The notes under the pieces: generated by a model
The model's database searches: none
What the model was told of the DNA's origin: nothing
The model's input: only the letters and a program-made list of their open reading frames with translations
Made by a program: the position numbers and the translations under genes
NCBI GenBank assembly: GCA_016187945.1
Contig: JACPIT010000007.1
Location: 62,001-126,000 of the forward strand
Direction of reading: 5' to 3'
Length of the DNA stretch: 64,000 nt
From: Opitutia bacterium
GTDB lineage: Bacteria; Verrucomicrobiota; Verrucomicrobiia; Opitutales; Opitutaceae
Shown: piece after piece, positions 20,961 through 26,819 of the stretch
Position numbering within the stretch: the stretch's first letter is position 1
Layout of the letters: each line of letters opens with the position of its first letter

Positions 20961-21259
20961 GACGGTGTAAGCCGTATGCGAAGCGCGCGCCAGCCGAGGC
21001 AACCGCAAACCCGCGCGCGCCCCAAGGCACACCAAACATTTCCCAAGATTTGCATGCGCTCACGCCGCGCCTGGCGCGTTCGGACGAGTTCACATCGAGC
21101 CGGCGCGGAGAGACCGGAGCGCGGTCGTTCGCGCGCGCAATCGGCCCGGTTTGTTACGGTTGGGTTTCCGGCGGGTAACATTCTTGTTCGCGACGCCGTC
21201 GCGCGTTGACCGCTCGGTGCGGCGAGGTTCGGGTGCGGACGACCTCGCTCCTGCTCACC
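20961..21259. other. Divergent intergenic region (299 bases)
   Basis: This stretch separates the reverse glycosidase-like gene from the forward TonB-receptor gene. It is GC-rich and contains no convincing open frame, RNA gene or long repeat. The candidate receptor promoter at 21151-21181 is the only element I can point to. Confidence 0.5.
21151..21181 (+). promoter_or_regulatory. Candidate promoter of the TonB-receptor gene
   Basis: TTGTTA (21151-21156) and TAACAT (21176-21181) are separated by 19 bases and resemble -35 and -10 boxes. They lie about 80 bases before the receptor ATG. The same stretch contains a GTTAC ... GTAAC inverted repeat that could be an operator. The spacing is longer than ideal. 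Confidence 0.3.
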
Positions 21260-24037
21260 ATGACCATGCGCACCATCATCCAACTTCTCTCCGCCCTGTT
21301 GTTTTTCGCCAGCGCGGGGCTTGCCGGCCTGCGGGCCGGCACGATCTCGGGCCGCGTCACCGACGGCTACACGAAACTCGCGCTCGGCGGCGCCCGCGTC
21401 ACTGCCGGCGGCGTCGAGACTTACTCGGAAACCACCGGCGAATTCACGCTGACCGGCGTGCCCGCGGGCCAGCAGATCGTCGAAGTGAATTATGTCGGCT
21501 ACGCGCCGCTGCAGCTCTCGCTCGAGGTCGCCGCGAGCGGCCTCACGCGTCTCGATCCGGTGTTCAATCGCGACCTGGTGCGGCTCCCGCAATTCGTCAT
21601 CGCTGGCTCGACGGTCGGCACCGCGCGTTCGCTCAACGAGCAGCGCGCCGCGGAAACGCTCACGAACGTCGTGGCCGCGGACGAGATCGGGCGGTTTCCC
21701 GATCAGAACGCGGCCGAGTCCGCGCAACGCATTCCCGGCGTCGCGCTCTACCGCGACCAAGGCGAGGGGCGCTTCCTCGTCGTGCGCGGCATCCGGCCCG
21801 ATTTGAATGGCATGCAACTCAACGGCGTCGCGATGACCTCGCCCGACCGCGGCGCGCGCACCGTGCCGCTCGACGTCATCCCGTCGGACGCGCTCGGTTC
21901 ACTCGAAGTCACGAAGGTTCCGCGCCCCGACCTCGACATCGACGGGCTTGGCGGCCGCGTGAACCTGAAGACGCGCAGCCCGTTCGATGCCGATGGCCGC
22001 CAGCTCCAACTCGCTGCGCAGGGCCAGTGGAACAACCTCCGCGAGCGTCTCAGCAGCAAATTCAACGGCACCTACTCGGACATCCTGAACGGCGGCAAAC
22101 TCGGCTTCATCTTTTCGCCCACGTGGCAGGAGCGCCGCTTCGGTTCCGACAACATCGAGACGTCCGGCAACTGGGCGGCGCCGGCGGGCAACAGCGTCCT
22201 CGCGCTGCCCGACATCAATTACCGCGAATACGAAATCACCCGCACGCGCTACGGTGCCAACGCCGGACTCGAGTTCCGTCCCGATCCCGCGACGCTCTTC
22301 TACGTCCGCGGCCTCTACTCGTATTTCACCGACCGCGAGAATCGCTACGTGACCACGATTCCGTTCTCCGAGGCGTCCAGCGCCGTCGTCACCAGCGAAA
22401 CCGCCGCGGCGTTCACCGGCGTCCGCCGCGAGAACAAGCAGCTCCGCAATCGCGAGAAACAGCAGGACGTCACGTCCTACTCGGCCGGTTTCGAAAAGAA
22501 CCTCGTCAACTGGCGCCTCGATGGCCGCGCGGCCTTCAGTCGCGGCAACGAAAACCGCCGCGAAGACACGGTGATCTTCCGCAAATCCGCGCGCGGCACG
22601 AACTGGTCTTACACCCTTCCAGGCGTCTACGCGCCGCTCGTCACGCAGACCGCTGGCACCGACCTCAGCGACCCGGCGTCGTTCAACGAACTCAACCGCC
22701 TCCGCTCCGCGCCCGCGTGGGGGTCGGACCGCGAGCAGAACTACGCCTTCAACGCGCGGCGCGAGTTTGTCACTGGCTCGGGCCAGCCGTCGTTCGTGAA
22801 GTTCGGCGCGCAGGCGCGCTTCAAGACGAAGGCGCAAAACCGCGAGCAGTCGAATTTCGCCGCGCCGGCCTCGTTCACGTTCGCCTCGCTCGCGCAGACG
22901 CAGGGGGAGGGCGACTACGCGTTTTTCCGCGGACCGCGCGTCAACGCCGAGGCGTTCACGCAGCAATTTGTGAACAACAAAAGCGCGTTCACCGAGACGC
23001 GCGACGTCGTCTCCAGCGAGCAGGAGGACTGGACCTCCGACGAGGACGTGCTCGCCGGTTACGCGATGGGCGGCGTCACCTTCGGCGACTTCAACGTCTC
23101 CGGCGGCGCGCGCTTCGAGCGGACGAAGTTCGCCGCGACCGGCAACGAGCAGCGCATCGTCTCCGGCGCGACGACGTTCGCGCGCGCCACGCGCGAGCGC
23201 AGCTACAACAACTTTCTCCCGGGCGTCTATCTGCGCTACGACGCCGACTCGCAGACGGTCTTCCGCGCGTCGTGGACCAACAGCGTCGCGCGCCCGGCGT
23301 TTTCCGAGAGCGCGTTGATCCGCTCCGTCAACGACGACGCCAAGACCGTCACCGAGAGCAACCCGGGCCTGAAAGCGCTCGAGTCGGTCAACTGGGACGC
23401 CTCCGCCGAGCACTATTTCCGCGGCCTCGGCGTCGTTTCGCTCGCCGCGTTCTACAAGAAAATCACCAACTTCACCTACCGCACCTCCGTGCCCAACGGC
23501 GATCTGGCGAACCCCACCTACCTGCTCACGACCTACGTGAACGGCAACGAGGGCGACGTCAGCGGCCTCGAGTTCGCCTTCACGCGTCGACTCGATTTTC
23601 TCCCGGGCGAACTGCGCAACGTGACGTTCCTGACGAACTACACGCTCACGCACAGCCGCGCGACATATCTGCGCACCGCGACGGGGACGTTCGAGAACGC
23701 GCCGTTCATCGGCCAGTCGCCACGCAACGCCAACGTCGCGCTCAGCTACGAAGCGCACCGCCTCTTCGTCCGCCTCTCGTTCAACTACCGCAGCTCGCAC
23801 CTGCGCGAGGACGAGCCGATCGGCGACAGCCTCGCGAACGACATCTACATCGACGATTTCAAGCAATGGGATCTCAACGCCAGCTACCGGATCGATCGTC
23901 GCTGGGAGCTGTTCGGCGAGGTGCTCAATCTCACCAACGAGCCGTTCCGCGTCGCGTTCACGAGTGCGCGCACGCGCTTCCGTCAGTTCGAGGAATACGG
24001 CTGGAGCGCGAACTTCGGCCTGCGGTGGAAGCTGTGA
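21260..24037 (+). CDS. TonB-dependent outer-membrane receptor with carboxypeptidase-regulatory domain
   Basis: A 925-residue outer-membrane transporter. The signal peptide starts at MTMRTIIQLLSALLFFASA and is cleaved around residue 27-30. A CarboxypepD_reg-like beta-sandwich follows (about 30-110: ISGRVTD, YSETTGEFTLTGVPAGQ, VEVNYVGYAP). The plug (about 120-260) contains DEIGRFPDQNAAES, QRIPGV and RGIRPDLNGMQLNG. The 22-strand barrel ends in the aromatic-rich sequence FGLRWKL. ATG 21260 was chosen over an in-frame TTG at 21206 because it begins the signal peptide directly. DEIGRFPDxN is typical of receptors for oligosaccharides, phytate or siderophores. The adjacent secreted phytase, 84 bases downstream, points to uptake linked to organic phosphate. 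No SusD partner is present. Confidence 0.93.
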   Translation: MTMRTIIQLLSALLFFASAGLAGLRAGTISGRVTDGYTKLALGGARVTAGGVETYSETTGEFTLTGVPAGQQIVEVNYVGYAPLQLSLEVAASGLTRLDPVFNRDLVRLPQFVIAGSTVGTARSLNEQRAAETLTNVVAADEIGRFPDQNAAESAQRIPGVALYRDQGEGRFLVVRGIRPDLNGMQLNGVAMTSPDRGARTVPLDVIPSDALGSLEVTKVPRPDLDIDGLGGRVNLKTRSPFDADGRQLQLAAQGQWNNLRERLSSKFNGTYSDILNGGKLGFIFSPTWQERRFGSDNIETSGNWAAPAGNSVLALPDINYREYEITRTRYGANAGLEFRPDPATLFYVRGLYSYFTDRENRYVTTIPFSEASSAVVTSETAAAFTGVRRENKQLRNREKQQDVTSYSAGFEKNLVNWRLDGRAAFSRGNENRREDTVIFRKSARGTNWSYTLPGVYAPLVTQTAGTDLSDPASFNELNRLRSAPAWGSDREQNYAFNARREFVTGSGQPSFVKFGAQARFKTKAQNREQSNFAAPASFTFASLAQTQGEGDYAFFRGPRVNAEAFTQQFVNNKSAFTETRDVVSSEQEDWTSDEDVLAGYAMGGVTFGDFNVSGGARFERTKFAATGNEQRIVSGATTFARATRERSYNNFLPGVYLRYDADSQTVFRASWTNSVARPAFSESALIRSVNDDAKTVTESNPGLKALESVNWDASAEHYFRGLGVVSLAAFYKKITNFTYRTSVPNGDLANPTYLLTTYVNGNEGDVSGLEFAFTRRLDFLPGELRNVTFLTNYTLTHSRATYLRTATGTFENAPFIGQSPRNANVALSYEAHRLFVRLSFNYRSSHLREDEPIGDSLANDIYIDDFKQWDLNASYRIDRRWELFGEVLNLTNEPFRVAFTSARTRFRQFEEYGWSANFGLRWKL

Positions 24038-24120: not shown

Positions 24121-25791
24121 ATGACCCGCCGGCTTCTCACTCTCGCGCTCCTCGCCGTTCTCGCTCCGGTCCACGCGTCCGCGTCGGCATACGCGGCGTT
24201 CCGCGCCGACATGCAAGCGGGCGACGCTTACACGATCGACGCCCGGCAGCTTCACCCGACGCAGTTCGCGCTCGGCTGGCGCGAGGTGGTTTTCAAACGC
24301 GCGAAAATCGACGCGAAAGACGCCACGGCGCTCGCTGGCTACCTGCAGGAGAAAGACGTGCCGATCGTCGTCGGGCCGGGCGGCGTGCCGTTCATGACCG
24401 ACGGACACCACACGATCCGCGCGCTGCTCGAGTCGCAGCACGCCGACAAAACCGTTTACGGACACGTGTTCGCCAACTGGGCCACGCTCGCGCCCGCCGA
24501 GTTCTGGGCGCGCATGCGTGCGAGCAATTACGCTTACCTGAAAGACGCCGCCGGTCGCGACGCGGCGCCCGAGGCGTTGCCGGCCTCGCTGCTCGAGATG
24601 CAGCGCGACCCCTGGCGCGGGCTCGCGTGGGCGCTGATGGAAGCCGGCGCGTTCACCGAGCTGAAAGGCGTGTTTTTCCAGGAATTTCGCTGGGCCGATT
24701 TCCTCCGCGCGCGCGTCGAGTGGGACGACGCCAACCAAGCCGACTTCCAGCGTGCGCTCGCCGAGGCGAAAAAAATCGCCGCCACGCCCGTGGCTGCCGC
24801 GCTGCCCGGCTACCGGGCCGGCGTGCTCCAGCCTCGCGTCGTCACCGCGCCGGTGAAACACGACACCGACGATCCCGCGATCTGGATCAACCCGGTCGAT
24901 CCGGCGCAGAGCCTGATCGTCGGCACCGACAAGGACACCGACGGCGCGCTTTACGTCTTCGATCTCCACGGGAAAATCGTCCGCACCTTCTCCGGCCTGC
25001 GGCGTCCGAACAACGTCGACATCGCCACCGGCTTTCGCCTTGGCGGAAAAGAAGTCGCGATCGCCGTGACGACGGAGCGCGAGGCGCAGCGCCTGCGGAT
25101 CTTCACGCTGCCCGAGATGACCTGCGTCGAGCGCGGCGATTTGATCGTGTTCGACGGCGACCCGAACCGGGCGCCGATGGGCGTTGCGCTCTATCGCCGC
25201 CCGCGCGACGGCGCGATGTTCGCATTCGTCGGCGGCAAATCCGGCCCCGCGCAGGGCTACCTCGGCCAATACCGTCTCGACGACGACGGCACGGGCCAGG
25301 TGAAGATGACGCTCGTGCGGCAGTTCGGCGCCTACAGCGGCACAAAGGAAATCGAGGCCATCGCCGTCGACGCCGAGCTCGGCTACGTTTACTACTCCGA
25401 CGAACAACGCGGCGTGCGCAAATACGCCGCCGACCCCGATGCGCCCGATGCCGACCGCGAACTCGCGTGCTTCGCGACGAGCGGCTTCGCGGGCGATCAC
25501 GAAGGCGTTTCGATTTGGAAACGAGCGGACGGCACTGGCTACGTGATCGTCTCCGATCAACAGGCGAACAAGTTCTGGCTCTTCCCGCGCGAAGGCGCGC
25601 CCGGTCACCCGCACGAACACCGAGTAGTGAAAATTGTCGAAGTCGCCGCGATCGAGAGCGACGGCAGCGACGTCACGTCGCAGCCGCTCGGCGAGCAGTT
25701 CCCCCATGGTCTCTTCGTCGCGATGTCGAACGGGCGCGTGTTCCACTACTACGGCTGGGAGCAGATTGCCGGCGGGGATTTGCGCCGCTGA
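24121..25791 (+). CDS. Secreted fusion: ParB/Srx-like N-domain plus beta-propeller phytase
   Basis: A 556-residue exported protein (signal peptide 1-22, ends ASASAYA). Residues about 35-215 resemble the exported ParB-like (ParBc_2-type) domain, with QLHPTQFALGW, a VPIVVGPGG strand and the core motif FMTDGHHTIRALL at 91-103. Residues about 230-550 match a beta-propeller phytase: HDTDDPAIW (247-255), IVGTDKDTDGALYVFDL (from 266), RPNNVD near 296, and later IEAIAVDAELGYVYYSDE and GDHEGVSI, which carry calcium- and phosphate-binding acidic residues. Such phytases remove phosphates from inositol hexakisphosphate outside the cell. The N-terminal domain's role here is unknown. It follows the TonB receptor, a pairing known for bacterial propeller phytases. 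The join appears continuous, without a frameshift. Confidence 0.85.
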   Translation: MTRRLLTLALLAVLAPVHASASAYAAFRADMQAGDAYTIDARQLHPTQFALGWREVVFKRAKIDAKDATALAGYLQEKDVPIVVGPGGVPFMTDGHHTIRALLESQHADKTVYGHVFANWATLAPAEFWARMRASNYAYLKDAAGRDAAPEALPASLLEMQRDPWRGLAWALMEAGAFTELKGVFFQEFRWADFLRARVEWDDANQADFQRALAEAKKIAATPVAAALPGYRAGVLQPRVVTAPVKHDTDDPAIWINPVDPAQSLIVGTDKDTDGALYVFDLHGKIVRTFSGLRRPNNVDIATGFRLGGKEVAIAVTTEREAQRLRIFTLPEMTCVERGDLIVFDGDPNRAPMGVALYRRPRDGAMFAFVGGKSGPAQGYLGQYRLDDDGTGQVKMTLVRQFGAYSGTKEIEAIAVDAELGYVYYSDEQRGVRKYAADPDAPDADRELACFATSGFAGDHEGVSIWKRADGTGYVIVSDQQANKFWLFPREGAPGHPHEHRVVKIVEVAAIESDGSDVTSQPLGEQFPHGLFVAMSNGRVFHYYGWEQIAGGDLRR

Positions 25792-25869: not shown

Positions 25870-26718
25870 CTACGAGCGAGTTCGAGCCGCGGCCGCGTTG
25901 CGCCAGGCGAGGGGACTGGTGCGCTCGGCGGCTTTGAACGCCCGATAAAAGGTCGTGATCTCGTCGAAGCCGCATTCGTAGGCGATCGATGTCACGGATC
26001 GGTTGGTTTCGCGGAGCAGTCGTTTCGCGTGTTCGAGGCGGTGGCGCTGAATGACGGCGAGCCACGATTCTCCCGTCGCCTCGCGGAACAACTGCGTGAA
26101 ATGCCGGCGACTGAGGCCGAGCGTCGCCGCGGCGCTGTCCACGCTTTGCCGATCGTAGAAGCGCCGCGCCAGCTCCGCCGCATACGCCGCCACGCGCGCC
26201 CGCGCGGGCTGGTCGGCCGCTGCATGTCGCGGCTCCGGCGCGCGTCCGGCGGCGGCTCGGGCCACGAGGCCGAGCGCCTGCCAGGCGAATCCCGTGATCA
26301 ACAGCTCCGCGCCGACGCGCGCCAGCGTTTGCTCGTGCAGCAGGTGGCGAACGATGCCGCGCAATTCGCCGTTCCACGCCGGAGCAGGGAAGTGGCGGAA
26401 TCTTGCCAGGCTCGTCGGCAGGGAGCTGAACGACCGCGGCGCGAGGCAAAGCGCATAGAGCGAGAGCGGCCGGAGGCCGTCGTCCTCGATGTGGTGCCGC
26501 TCGCCCGCCGGGACGAGCACGACGCCGCCGCCCCGCAACGGCACGCGCGCGCCCCCGCGCACGAGCCAACCCGCGCCGGAGAACGGCTGGACGATCTTCA
26601 TGAACGGGTGCCGCGCCGGCTCCATGCGGAAGCCGCGGGCGTGGTGACTTTCGAGAACGAACACGCCGCAGGCGGGAAACTGGACGGCGATCGGGCGCCG
26701 GGCGCGGGGATCGAACAT
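25870..26718 (-). CDS. AraC-family transcriptional regulator
   Basis: A 282-residue regulator. The N-terminal cupin domain (about 10-125) includes RMEPARHPFMKIVQPFSGAGW and VVLVPAGERHHIED. The C-terminal double helix-turn-helix has SAAATLGLSRRHFTQLFREATGESW and SIAYECGFDEITTFYRAFKAAERTSP. The open frame continues upstream to 26817, but that extension lies in the divergent promoter and adds no domain, so MFDPRARRP is taken as the start. It is divergent from the Rieske oxygenase gene by about 100 bases and is the obvious candidate regulator of the Rieske/MetE-core pair. Its ligand is unknown. Confidence 0.9.
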   Translation of the reverse strand: MFDPRARRPIAVQFPACGVFVLESHHARGFRMEPARHPFMKIVQPFSGAGWLVRGGARVPLRGGGVVLVPAGERHHIEDDGLRPLSLYALCLAPRSFSSLPTSLARFRHFPAPAWNGELRGIVRHLLHEQTLARVGAELLITGFAWQALGLVARAAAGRAPEPRHAAADQPARARVAAYAAELARRFYDRQSVDSAAATLGLSRRHFTQLFREATGESWLAVIQRHRLEHAKRLLRETNRSVTSIAYECGFDEITTFYRAFKAAERTSPLAWRNAAAARTRS

Positions 26719-26819
26719 GGCGGGACTGGGAATGGCGACGAGCGCCCGATTTGCCAAGCCGCATCGCCCAAGGCGCCACGACTCGGGAGGCGACAAGGTG
26801 ATAGGATGCCGCGCCACGC
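26719..26819. promoter_or_regulatory. Divergent AraC / Rieske promoter region
   Basis: This 101-base interval must contain promoters for both the AraC regulator and the Rieske oxygenase. GATAGGAT at 26800-26807 resembles a -10 element but lies very close to the ATG at 26820. No convincing -35 or operator repeat could be picked out, so only position supports the call. Confidence 0.35.

Follow-up and report, generated by a model that had tools for sequence, protein, structure and literature searches.

The stretch of DNA analysed here (the window; 64,000 nucleotides from a member of the Opitutaceae) contains an ORF at 24,121-25,791 (forward strand) that starts with ATG, has no internal stop, and encodes a single protein of 556 amino acids, in which a ParBc_2 domain is joined to a beta-propeller phytase. 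Its N-terminus (approximately residues 1-21; 24,121-24,183, forward strand; MTRRLLTLALLAVLAPVHASA) resembles a type I signal peptide without a lipobox, from which we infer that the protein is exported; all signal peptides were assessed by inspection, not with a predictor, and "exported" below means a signal-like N-terminus by eye. The ParBc_2 domain (residues 39-196; 24,235-24,708, forward strand) matches PF08857 with 159.6 bits against a curated cut-off of 23.6 (E = 8.6e-47), and in the PDB, residues 42-231 match 2hwj by sequence (Atu1540; 1e-25). Inside it lies the motif FMTDGHHTIRALL, D94-G95-H96-H97-T98 (24,400-24,414, forward strand). A helical tail and linker (residues 197-246; 24,709-24,858, forward strand) separates the two Pfam matches, with helices at positions 185-199 and 202-206, in the model's own numbering, of a model of residues 22-230. 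The phytase domain (residues 247-536; 24,859-25,728, forward strand) matches PF02333 with 143.7 bits against a cut-off of 21 (E = 9.9e-42), over 285 of the 375 profile positions; in the PDB, residues 248-542 match Bacillus-type phytases (1cvm, 1.5e-32). The first-pass annotation had read a ParB-like core with this motif and a propeller phytase in one chain, and profile searches of the two halves bear it out, as both matches exceed their cut-offs and are far beyond chance. These scores, and the recurrence of the fusion in six genomes, rule out a chance match or an assembly artefact. In a genome-wide profile search the fusion gene holds both the sole ParBc_2 match and the sole phytase match of its own genome. 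Among three congeners compared, dN/dS was 0.20-0.27 for the ParB part and 0.10-0.11 for the phytase part, indicating purifying selection on both.

Directly upstream, on the same strand, is a gene for a TonB-dependent receptor (21,206-24,037; 943 amino acids from the first TTG, with an ATG at 21,260 as the likelier start), which matches TIGR01782 with 549 bits (2.1e-164) as well as PF00593, PF07715, and CarboxypepD_reg; the gap of 83 nt to the fusion gene agrees with the receptor noticed at first reading. Each of the six fusion genomes has a homologous receptor gene upstream of the fusion and in the same orientation (the sixth at locus L243). More broadly, in 21 of 80 phytase loci a receptor related to this one (E ≤ 1e-20) is encoded ahead of the phytase gene, no more than 600 nt away; some of the 80 have too little upstream sequence for its presence to be judged. 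A conserved block before the receptor gene (TTGTTACGG..GGTAACAT; 21,151-21,181, forward strand) could be aligned in four fusion genomes; the exact pattern, searched across the window's own genome, matched once, at the block itself, which leaves a Pho-type regulon marked by this block unsupported. On the other side, the fusion gene faces a convergent gene for an AraC-family regulator (25,870-26,817, reverse strand; PF12833 and PF02311).

The combination of receptor, ParBc_2, and phytase also exists in a split version. In a Cephaloticoccus MAG, a receptor gene is followed by a phytase gene (354 amino acids, with a lipoprotein-like start) and then, after 22 nt, by a separate gene for an exported ParBc_2 protein (241 amino acids), the order of the two being reversed relative to the fusion. 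Genome G1170 has two genes for stand-alone exported ParBc_2 directly 3′ of another TonB receptor gene, without a phytase (L242:5,695-8,765 and L241:1,704-3,660, both reverse strand, the L241 receptor being cut by the contig end); the window's receptor, used as a query, did not find the G1170 receptor (L242). Beside seven other stand-alone ParBc_2 genes of the family no adjacent receptor was seen among the neighbours, part of which were scanned with Pfam. In two genomes of one genus, a stand-alone ParBc_2 gene is convergent to a gene for an M14 carboxypeptidase-domain protein (L234:6,806-9,508 and L236:1,062-3,710, both reverse strand).

The phytase half belongs to the same family as 1cvm. Of nine active-site positions of the Bacillus enzyme, eight (K76, R122, K179, E211, E227, D258, E260, and D314) are kept in the fusion, as K271, R320, K373, E412, E428, D459, E461, and D514, and the ninth, E180, is S374, at a position that varies in this phytase subfamily; this substitution may alter phytase activity. 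The fusion also differs from 1cvm in its additional N-terminal domain. The phytase block has pLDDT values of 88-98 in a full-length model, in which the ParB half is poorly modelled (five alignment rows there) and contacts between the domains are unreadable. Like the dual-domain propeller phytases, the fusion has an additional domain ahead of a complete phytase, but there the additional domain is another phytase, whereas here it has a ParB/Srx fold. Tandem phytase stretches within one ORF were seen in records titled Maribacter, Flavobacteriales, and Flammeovirgaceae (L027:4,926-6,977, L028:4,914-6,965, and L032:4,920-6,695, all forward strand). Several unfused phytases of the same family have lipoprotein-like starts by eye (L009:4,902-5,966, L012:4,953-6,005, L007:1-1,020, and L244:5,300-6,415), whereas the fused protein has no lipobox, so the anchoring may differ.

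For the N-terminal half, a model of residues 22-230 built from 48 aligned rows has a mean pLDDT of 97.0 and a pTM of 0.91, and 2hwj_B superposes on it with Z = 25.7 and an rmsd of 1.3 over 183 residues. The VIA-align list, which cannot exclude folds absent from it, has 30 rows, every one of them 2hwj or a ParB/Srx-type protein; the 29 besides 2hwj are sulfiredoxin, Noc, ParB, KorB, PadC, SerK, SbnI, and similar proteins, with modest Z values of 2.4-6.0. In a plain Foldseek list, ParB/Srx-type proteins appear from E = 0.055 and unrelated proteins from E = 0.43. Taken singly, the scores against the wider superfamily are thus modest, but because of the 2hwj match and the uniformity of the VIA-align list, the assignment of the modelled domain to the ParB/Srx fold is well supported. 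The structure 2hwj is a chain of 205 residues annotated as a hypothetical protein, whose alignment shows the motif as D-H-H-H; the fusion differs from it in having a signal peptide (by eye) and a phytase.

Conservation was examined in 60 ParBc_2 domains, left from 88 domain hits after second copies of the same genes were removed; the set mixes fused, exported, and cytosolic ParBc_2, and includes the fused protein of the window and some close copies. Seven residues are invariant in all 60 (T47, Q48, G52, D94, H96, H97, and F128) and four more nearly so (K59 in 58, D163 in 58, R166 in 59, and E188 in 54). Residue 95 is glycine in 12 domains, histidine in 46, and arginine in 2; since it varies while D94, H96, and H97 are fixed, the motif of the first-pass annotation is better written D-x-H-H. 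That annotation had also named a missing ParB match, or loss of its five-residue motif from all relatives, as grounds for abandoning the fusion: the match was found, and the aspartate and both histidines of the motif, if not its glycine, occur in 60 of 60 domains.

The fold is shared with ParB, Noc, Srx, SerK, and SbnI (Z of 4-6), which are intracellular nucleotide-using proteins with an arginine motif. A profile alignment sets the GERR of ParB on G95-H96-H97-T98, at a probability of 0.5%, so the register serves as a hint. At the position of the GxxR arginine, as placed by this non-significant alignment, the fusion has T98, and arginine occurs in none of the 60 domains, which have L, T, W, V, S, M, or A instead; the canonical nucleotide grip therefore appears to be absent from the ParBc_2 family. 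(A mixed alignment was discarded, as its ParB rows fell on phytase columns, and a smaller alignment, containing two rows of ParB alone at 19% identity, went unused as well.) In NTP-binding ParB relatives, mutation of the GxxR arginine abolished binding, according to a recent survey (PMC12704722).

Among 200 genomes of the Opitutaceae, 14 contain ParBc_2, 54 contain a phytase, and 8 contain both. The fusion is found in six of them, in two genera (G000, G318, G328, G418, G1261, and G1274). Of the remaining two, G1265 has adjoining ParBc_2 and phytase genes and G1221 has both on separate contigs; G1261 and G1265 are recurrences, within this set and with identical contig coordinates, of the Lacunisphaera and Cephaloticoccus MAG loci. 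The first-pass annotation had raised the question of how many phytases of the Verrucomicrobiota carry the extension: in a draw of 288 genomes of this phylum, 15 have a phytase (14 over the cut-off), 6 have ParBc_2, and 4 have the fusion. ParBc_2 was found in 3 of 177 genomes of the host order, in 2 of 45 genomes examined from behind the 80 phytase loci (the Lacunisphaera and Cephaloticoccus MAGs), and in none of 247 genomes of the Bacteroidota, a phylum (that of Arundinibacter) from which many of the nearest unfused phytases come. PF08857 matches 43 of 398 genomes (41 over the cut-off) sampled from the phylum to which a gammaproteobacterial MAG belongs.

A tree of 73 ParBc_2 domains accounts for the phytase fusions by a single change, weakly supported (79/46; 80% of 200 bootstrap trees), so all of them may share one origin. 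The ParBc_2 of the Cephaloticoccus gene pair groups with the stand-alone copies of G1221 and G1278 (100/99), apart from the fusions; the fusion and the gene pair were therefore probably linked to phytase in separate events. An old ParBc_2/phytase pair that was lost in some lineages is a possible alternative.

A second fusion joins ParBc_2 to a different phosphate enzyme. In a genome of the Pseudomonadota (G728, L130:4,976-6,520, reverse strand), one ORF of 514 amino acids, with a signal-like start by eye, encodes ParBc_2 (4.9e-36) followed by a C-terminal inorganic pyrophosphatase (PF00719, 5.7e-35), whose DGDPLDV stretch we take to be the signature of inorganic pyrophosphatases. Two Vibrio pelagius plasmids (L246 and L247; 6,001-7,545 in each, forward strand) carry a homologue with 91-92% identity over all 514 amino acids, annotated as "ParB-like protein"; both domains were confirmed by Pfam in L246, the copy scanned. 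The annotated genes near the fusion on these two plasmids have no phosphate theme. In the tree, the three pyrophosphatase fusions form one clade (100/99) within eight Pseudomonadota rows, and a 100/100 branch parts these eight from all others, including the Opitutaceae rows; the tree program warns of long branches, among them those of the pyrophosphatase fusions with L248. Exported ParBc_2 has thus been fused to phosphate-releasing enzymes on at least two occasions.

A relation to phosphate is also reported for the family elsewhere. Under phosphate stress, Pseudomonas fluorescens SBW25 secretes a lipoprotein with Pfam08857, and the authors suggest that it may act like UshA, while also terming it a putative nuclease (PMC5082522). 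This lipoprotein shares with the fusion protein the Pfam family, secretion (predicted for the fusion), and the relation to phosphate; no phytase part is mentioned in the passages on it. For Pseudomonas phytases, the same study found no evidence of PhoBR control (PMC5082522). Several observations on ParBc_2 at large speak against a phosphate role. Many ParBc_2 proteins are cytosolic by eye and lie beside stress or unrelated genes; 6 of the 14 ParBc_2-bearing Opitutaceae genomes have no phytase match; and none of 34 wider Pseudomonadota ParBc_2 regions, several of them shortened by contig ends, contains a phytase. At 12 loci with exported ParBc_2, where genes were called by a composition heuristic instead of a gene finder and 62 of the 68 neighbouring proteins were scanned, only MCPsignal and HAMP recur (two proteins each). 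Every other family occurs in one protein, so no phosphate gene recurs; of the 117 families, 25 are listed, with PhoU_div seen once among them, and single phosphate-related neighbours may lie among the rest. Two further arrangements were noted among the regions examined. A gene for cytosolic ParBc_2 lies 3′ of a SulP transporter gene with STAS, with an overlap of 4 nt, at L122:4,322-6,585 (forward strand) and L163:4,891-7,292 (reverse strand), which makes a link of ParBc_2 with anion transport possible; and a ParBc_2 protein of 725 amino acids at L004:106-2,283 (reverse strand) has a long C-terminal part and, by eye, a PEP-CTERM-like end.

The two families are already known; their combination is a new variant. 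A literature search, mostly of papers open without subscription, found no paper with both ParBc_2 and phytase, and the matches listed include nothing on a ParBc_2-phytase fusion and no tested function for PF08857. Among the five papers listed that name PF08857, ParBc_2, Pfam08857, Atu1540, or 2HWJ, only PMC5082522 concerns the family, judging by title; PMC7381183, judged by its passages, is unrelated to the fusion. The 2025 survey of the ParB/Srx fold used PF02195 as its query (PMC12704722), and its main text contains neither the word "phytase" nor "ParBc_2".

We tentatively favor, at slightly less than even confidence, a reading of the fusion as an exported two-domain phosphate-scavenging enzyme, in which ParBc_2 would contribute a putative second phosphate-directed activity. 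The phosphate role is proposed because the pyrophosphatase fusion and the secretion of the SBW25 protein under phosphate stress point there. Further inferences concern whether ParBc_2 is catalytic and on what substrate, what the receptor does, and how the parts share the work, which might be as follows. The TonB receptor would take up, or serve the use of, phytate, or a metal-phytate or inositol-phosphate complex, and the propeller phytase would degrade phytate to Ins(2,4,6)P3, the endpoint given for propeller phytases in PMC12406696. ParBc_2, with D-x-H-H where ParB has the GxxR arginine, would catalyse hydrolysis of, or transfer at, a further phosphate ester or anhydride, such as lower inositol phosphates or nucleotides. 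More phosphate would thereby be released, the product or substrate being common to the fused enzyme. If ParBc_2 worked on inositol phosphates, phytase would be a fitting partner, and if its reaction yielded PPi, a pyrophosphatase would be; the weak point of this reading is that no single substrate evidently accounts for both partners. Of the two-substrate phosphate scavenger put forward in the first-pass annotation, phosphate scavenging gains support from the pyrophosphatase fusion, the operon linkage, and the SBW25 secretion, while nucleic acid as the second substrate gains none: no computed result indicates DNA or RNA, and "nuclease" is the Pfam name.

The main rival is that ParBc_2 is a non-catalytic binding domain for multivalent phosphate anions such as phytate and PPi, or that it docks the enzyme to the receptor, with only the partner being catalytic; we consider this unlikely, if still deserving of weight. 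It covers both partners, since each of their substrates, phytate and PPi, is a multivalent phosphate anion; the receptor gene adjoins the fusion gene; and the conserved ParBc_2 residues could form a binding site instead of a catalytic one. In many proteins the ParB fold serves as a ligand-binding module attached to other domains, as described in PMC12704722. Against it, the invariant residues are also kept in stand-alone and cytosolic ParBc_2 proteins, which have no partner enzyme in the chain.

That ParBc_2 is instead an extracellular nuclease or UshA-like nucleotidase, so that phosphate would be drawn from phytate as well as from nucleic acids or nucleotides, seems improbable to us. The Pfam family is named "Putative ParB-like nuclease", a UshA-like role is what PMC5082522 suggests for the SBW25 protein that it terms a nuclease, and nuclease reports exist for RK2 ParB and PF0380, as cited in PMC5120207. 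But TK0378, a close homologue of PF0380, turned out to be a serine kinase in that account (PMC5120207), which makes the nuclease label of the fold doubtful; the nucleotide-binding GxxR arginine (PMC12704722) is matched in none of the 60 domains, at a position aligned at the level of a hint; and no nucleic-acid family recurs among the 62 neighboring proteins. We give equally little credence to ParBc_2 as a passenger with an unrelated extracellular role, such as stability or partner binding, joined by chance in one lineage: such an accident would fit the possible single origin of the phytase fusions and their confinement to two genera among the 200 genomes, but it sits poorly with the fact that the domain is under purifying selection, and with the independent occurrence of the Cephaloticoccus gene pair and of the pyrophosphatase fusion. 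For this protein a role in chromosome partitioning is unlikely, given the export signal (by eye) and the lack of an arginine at the aligned position, and an origin in defence or phage was rejected, as the fusion has no PADLOC or PHROGs match and no phage record matches the ParB part.

Beyond the window, the favored two-activity reading can be widened to a bolder proposal, which we regard as rather doubtful: that exported ParBc_2 proteins are unrecognised extracellular phosphate-releasing modules (phosphohydrolases or phosphotransferases) on a ParB/Srx fold, with D-x-H-H replacing the NTP-binding arginine, joined separately to phytase in the Opitutaceae and to inorganic pyrophosphatase in Vibrio, and that the name "ParB-like nuclease" is wrong. 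If this is true, the ParB/Srx fold would gain an extracellular role without its usual nucleotide grip, and a partner domain that goes past Ins(2,4,6)P3 would be relevant to phosphorus cycling and to the use of phytases. The fused and split forms make the ParBc_2 hypothesis directly testable, and with fusions to two different phosphate enzymes, the widespread and perhaps misnamed family PF08857 has a concrete hypothesis that can be put to the test.
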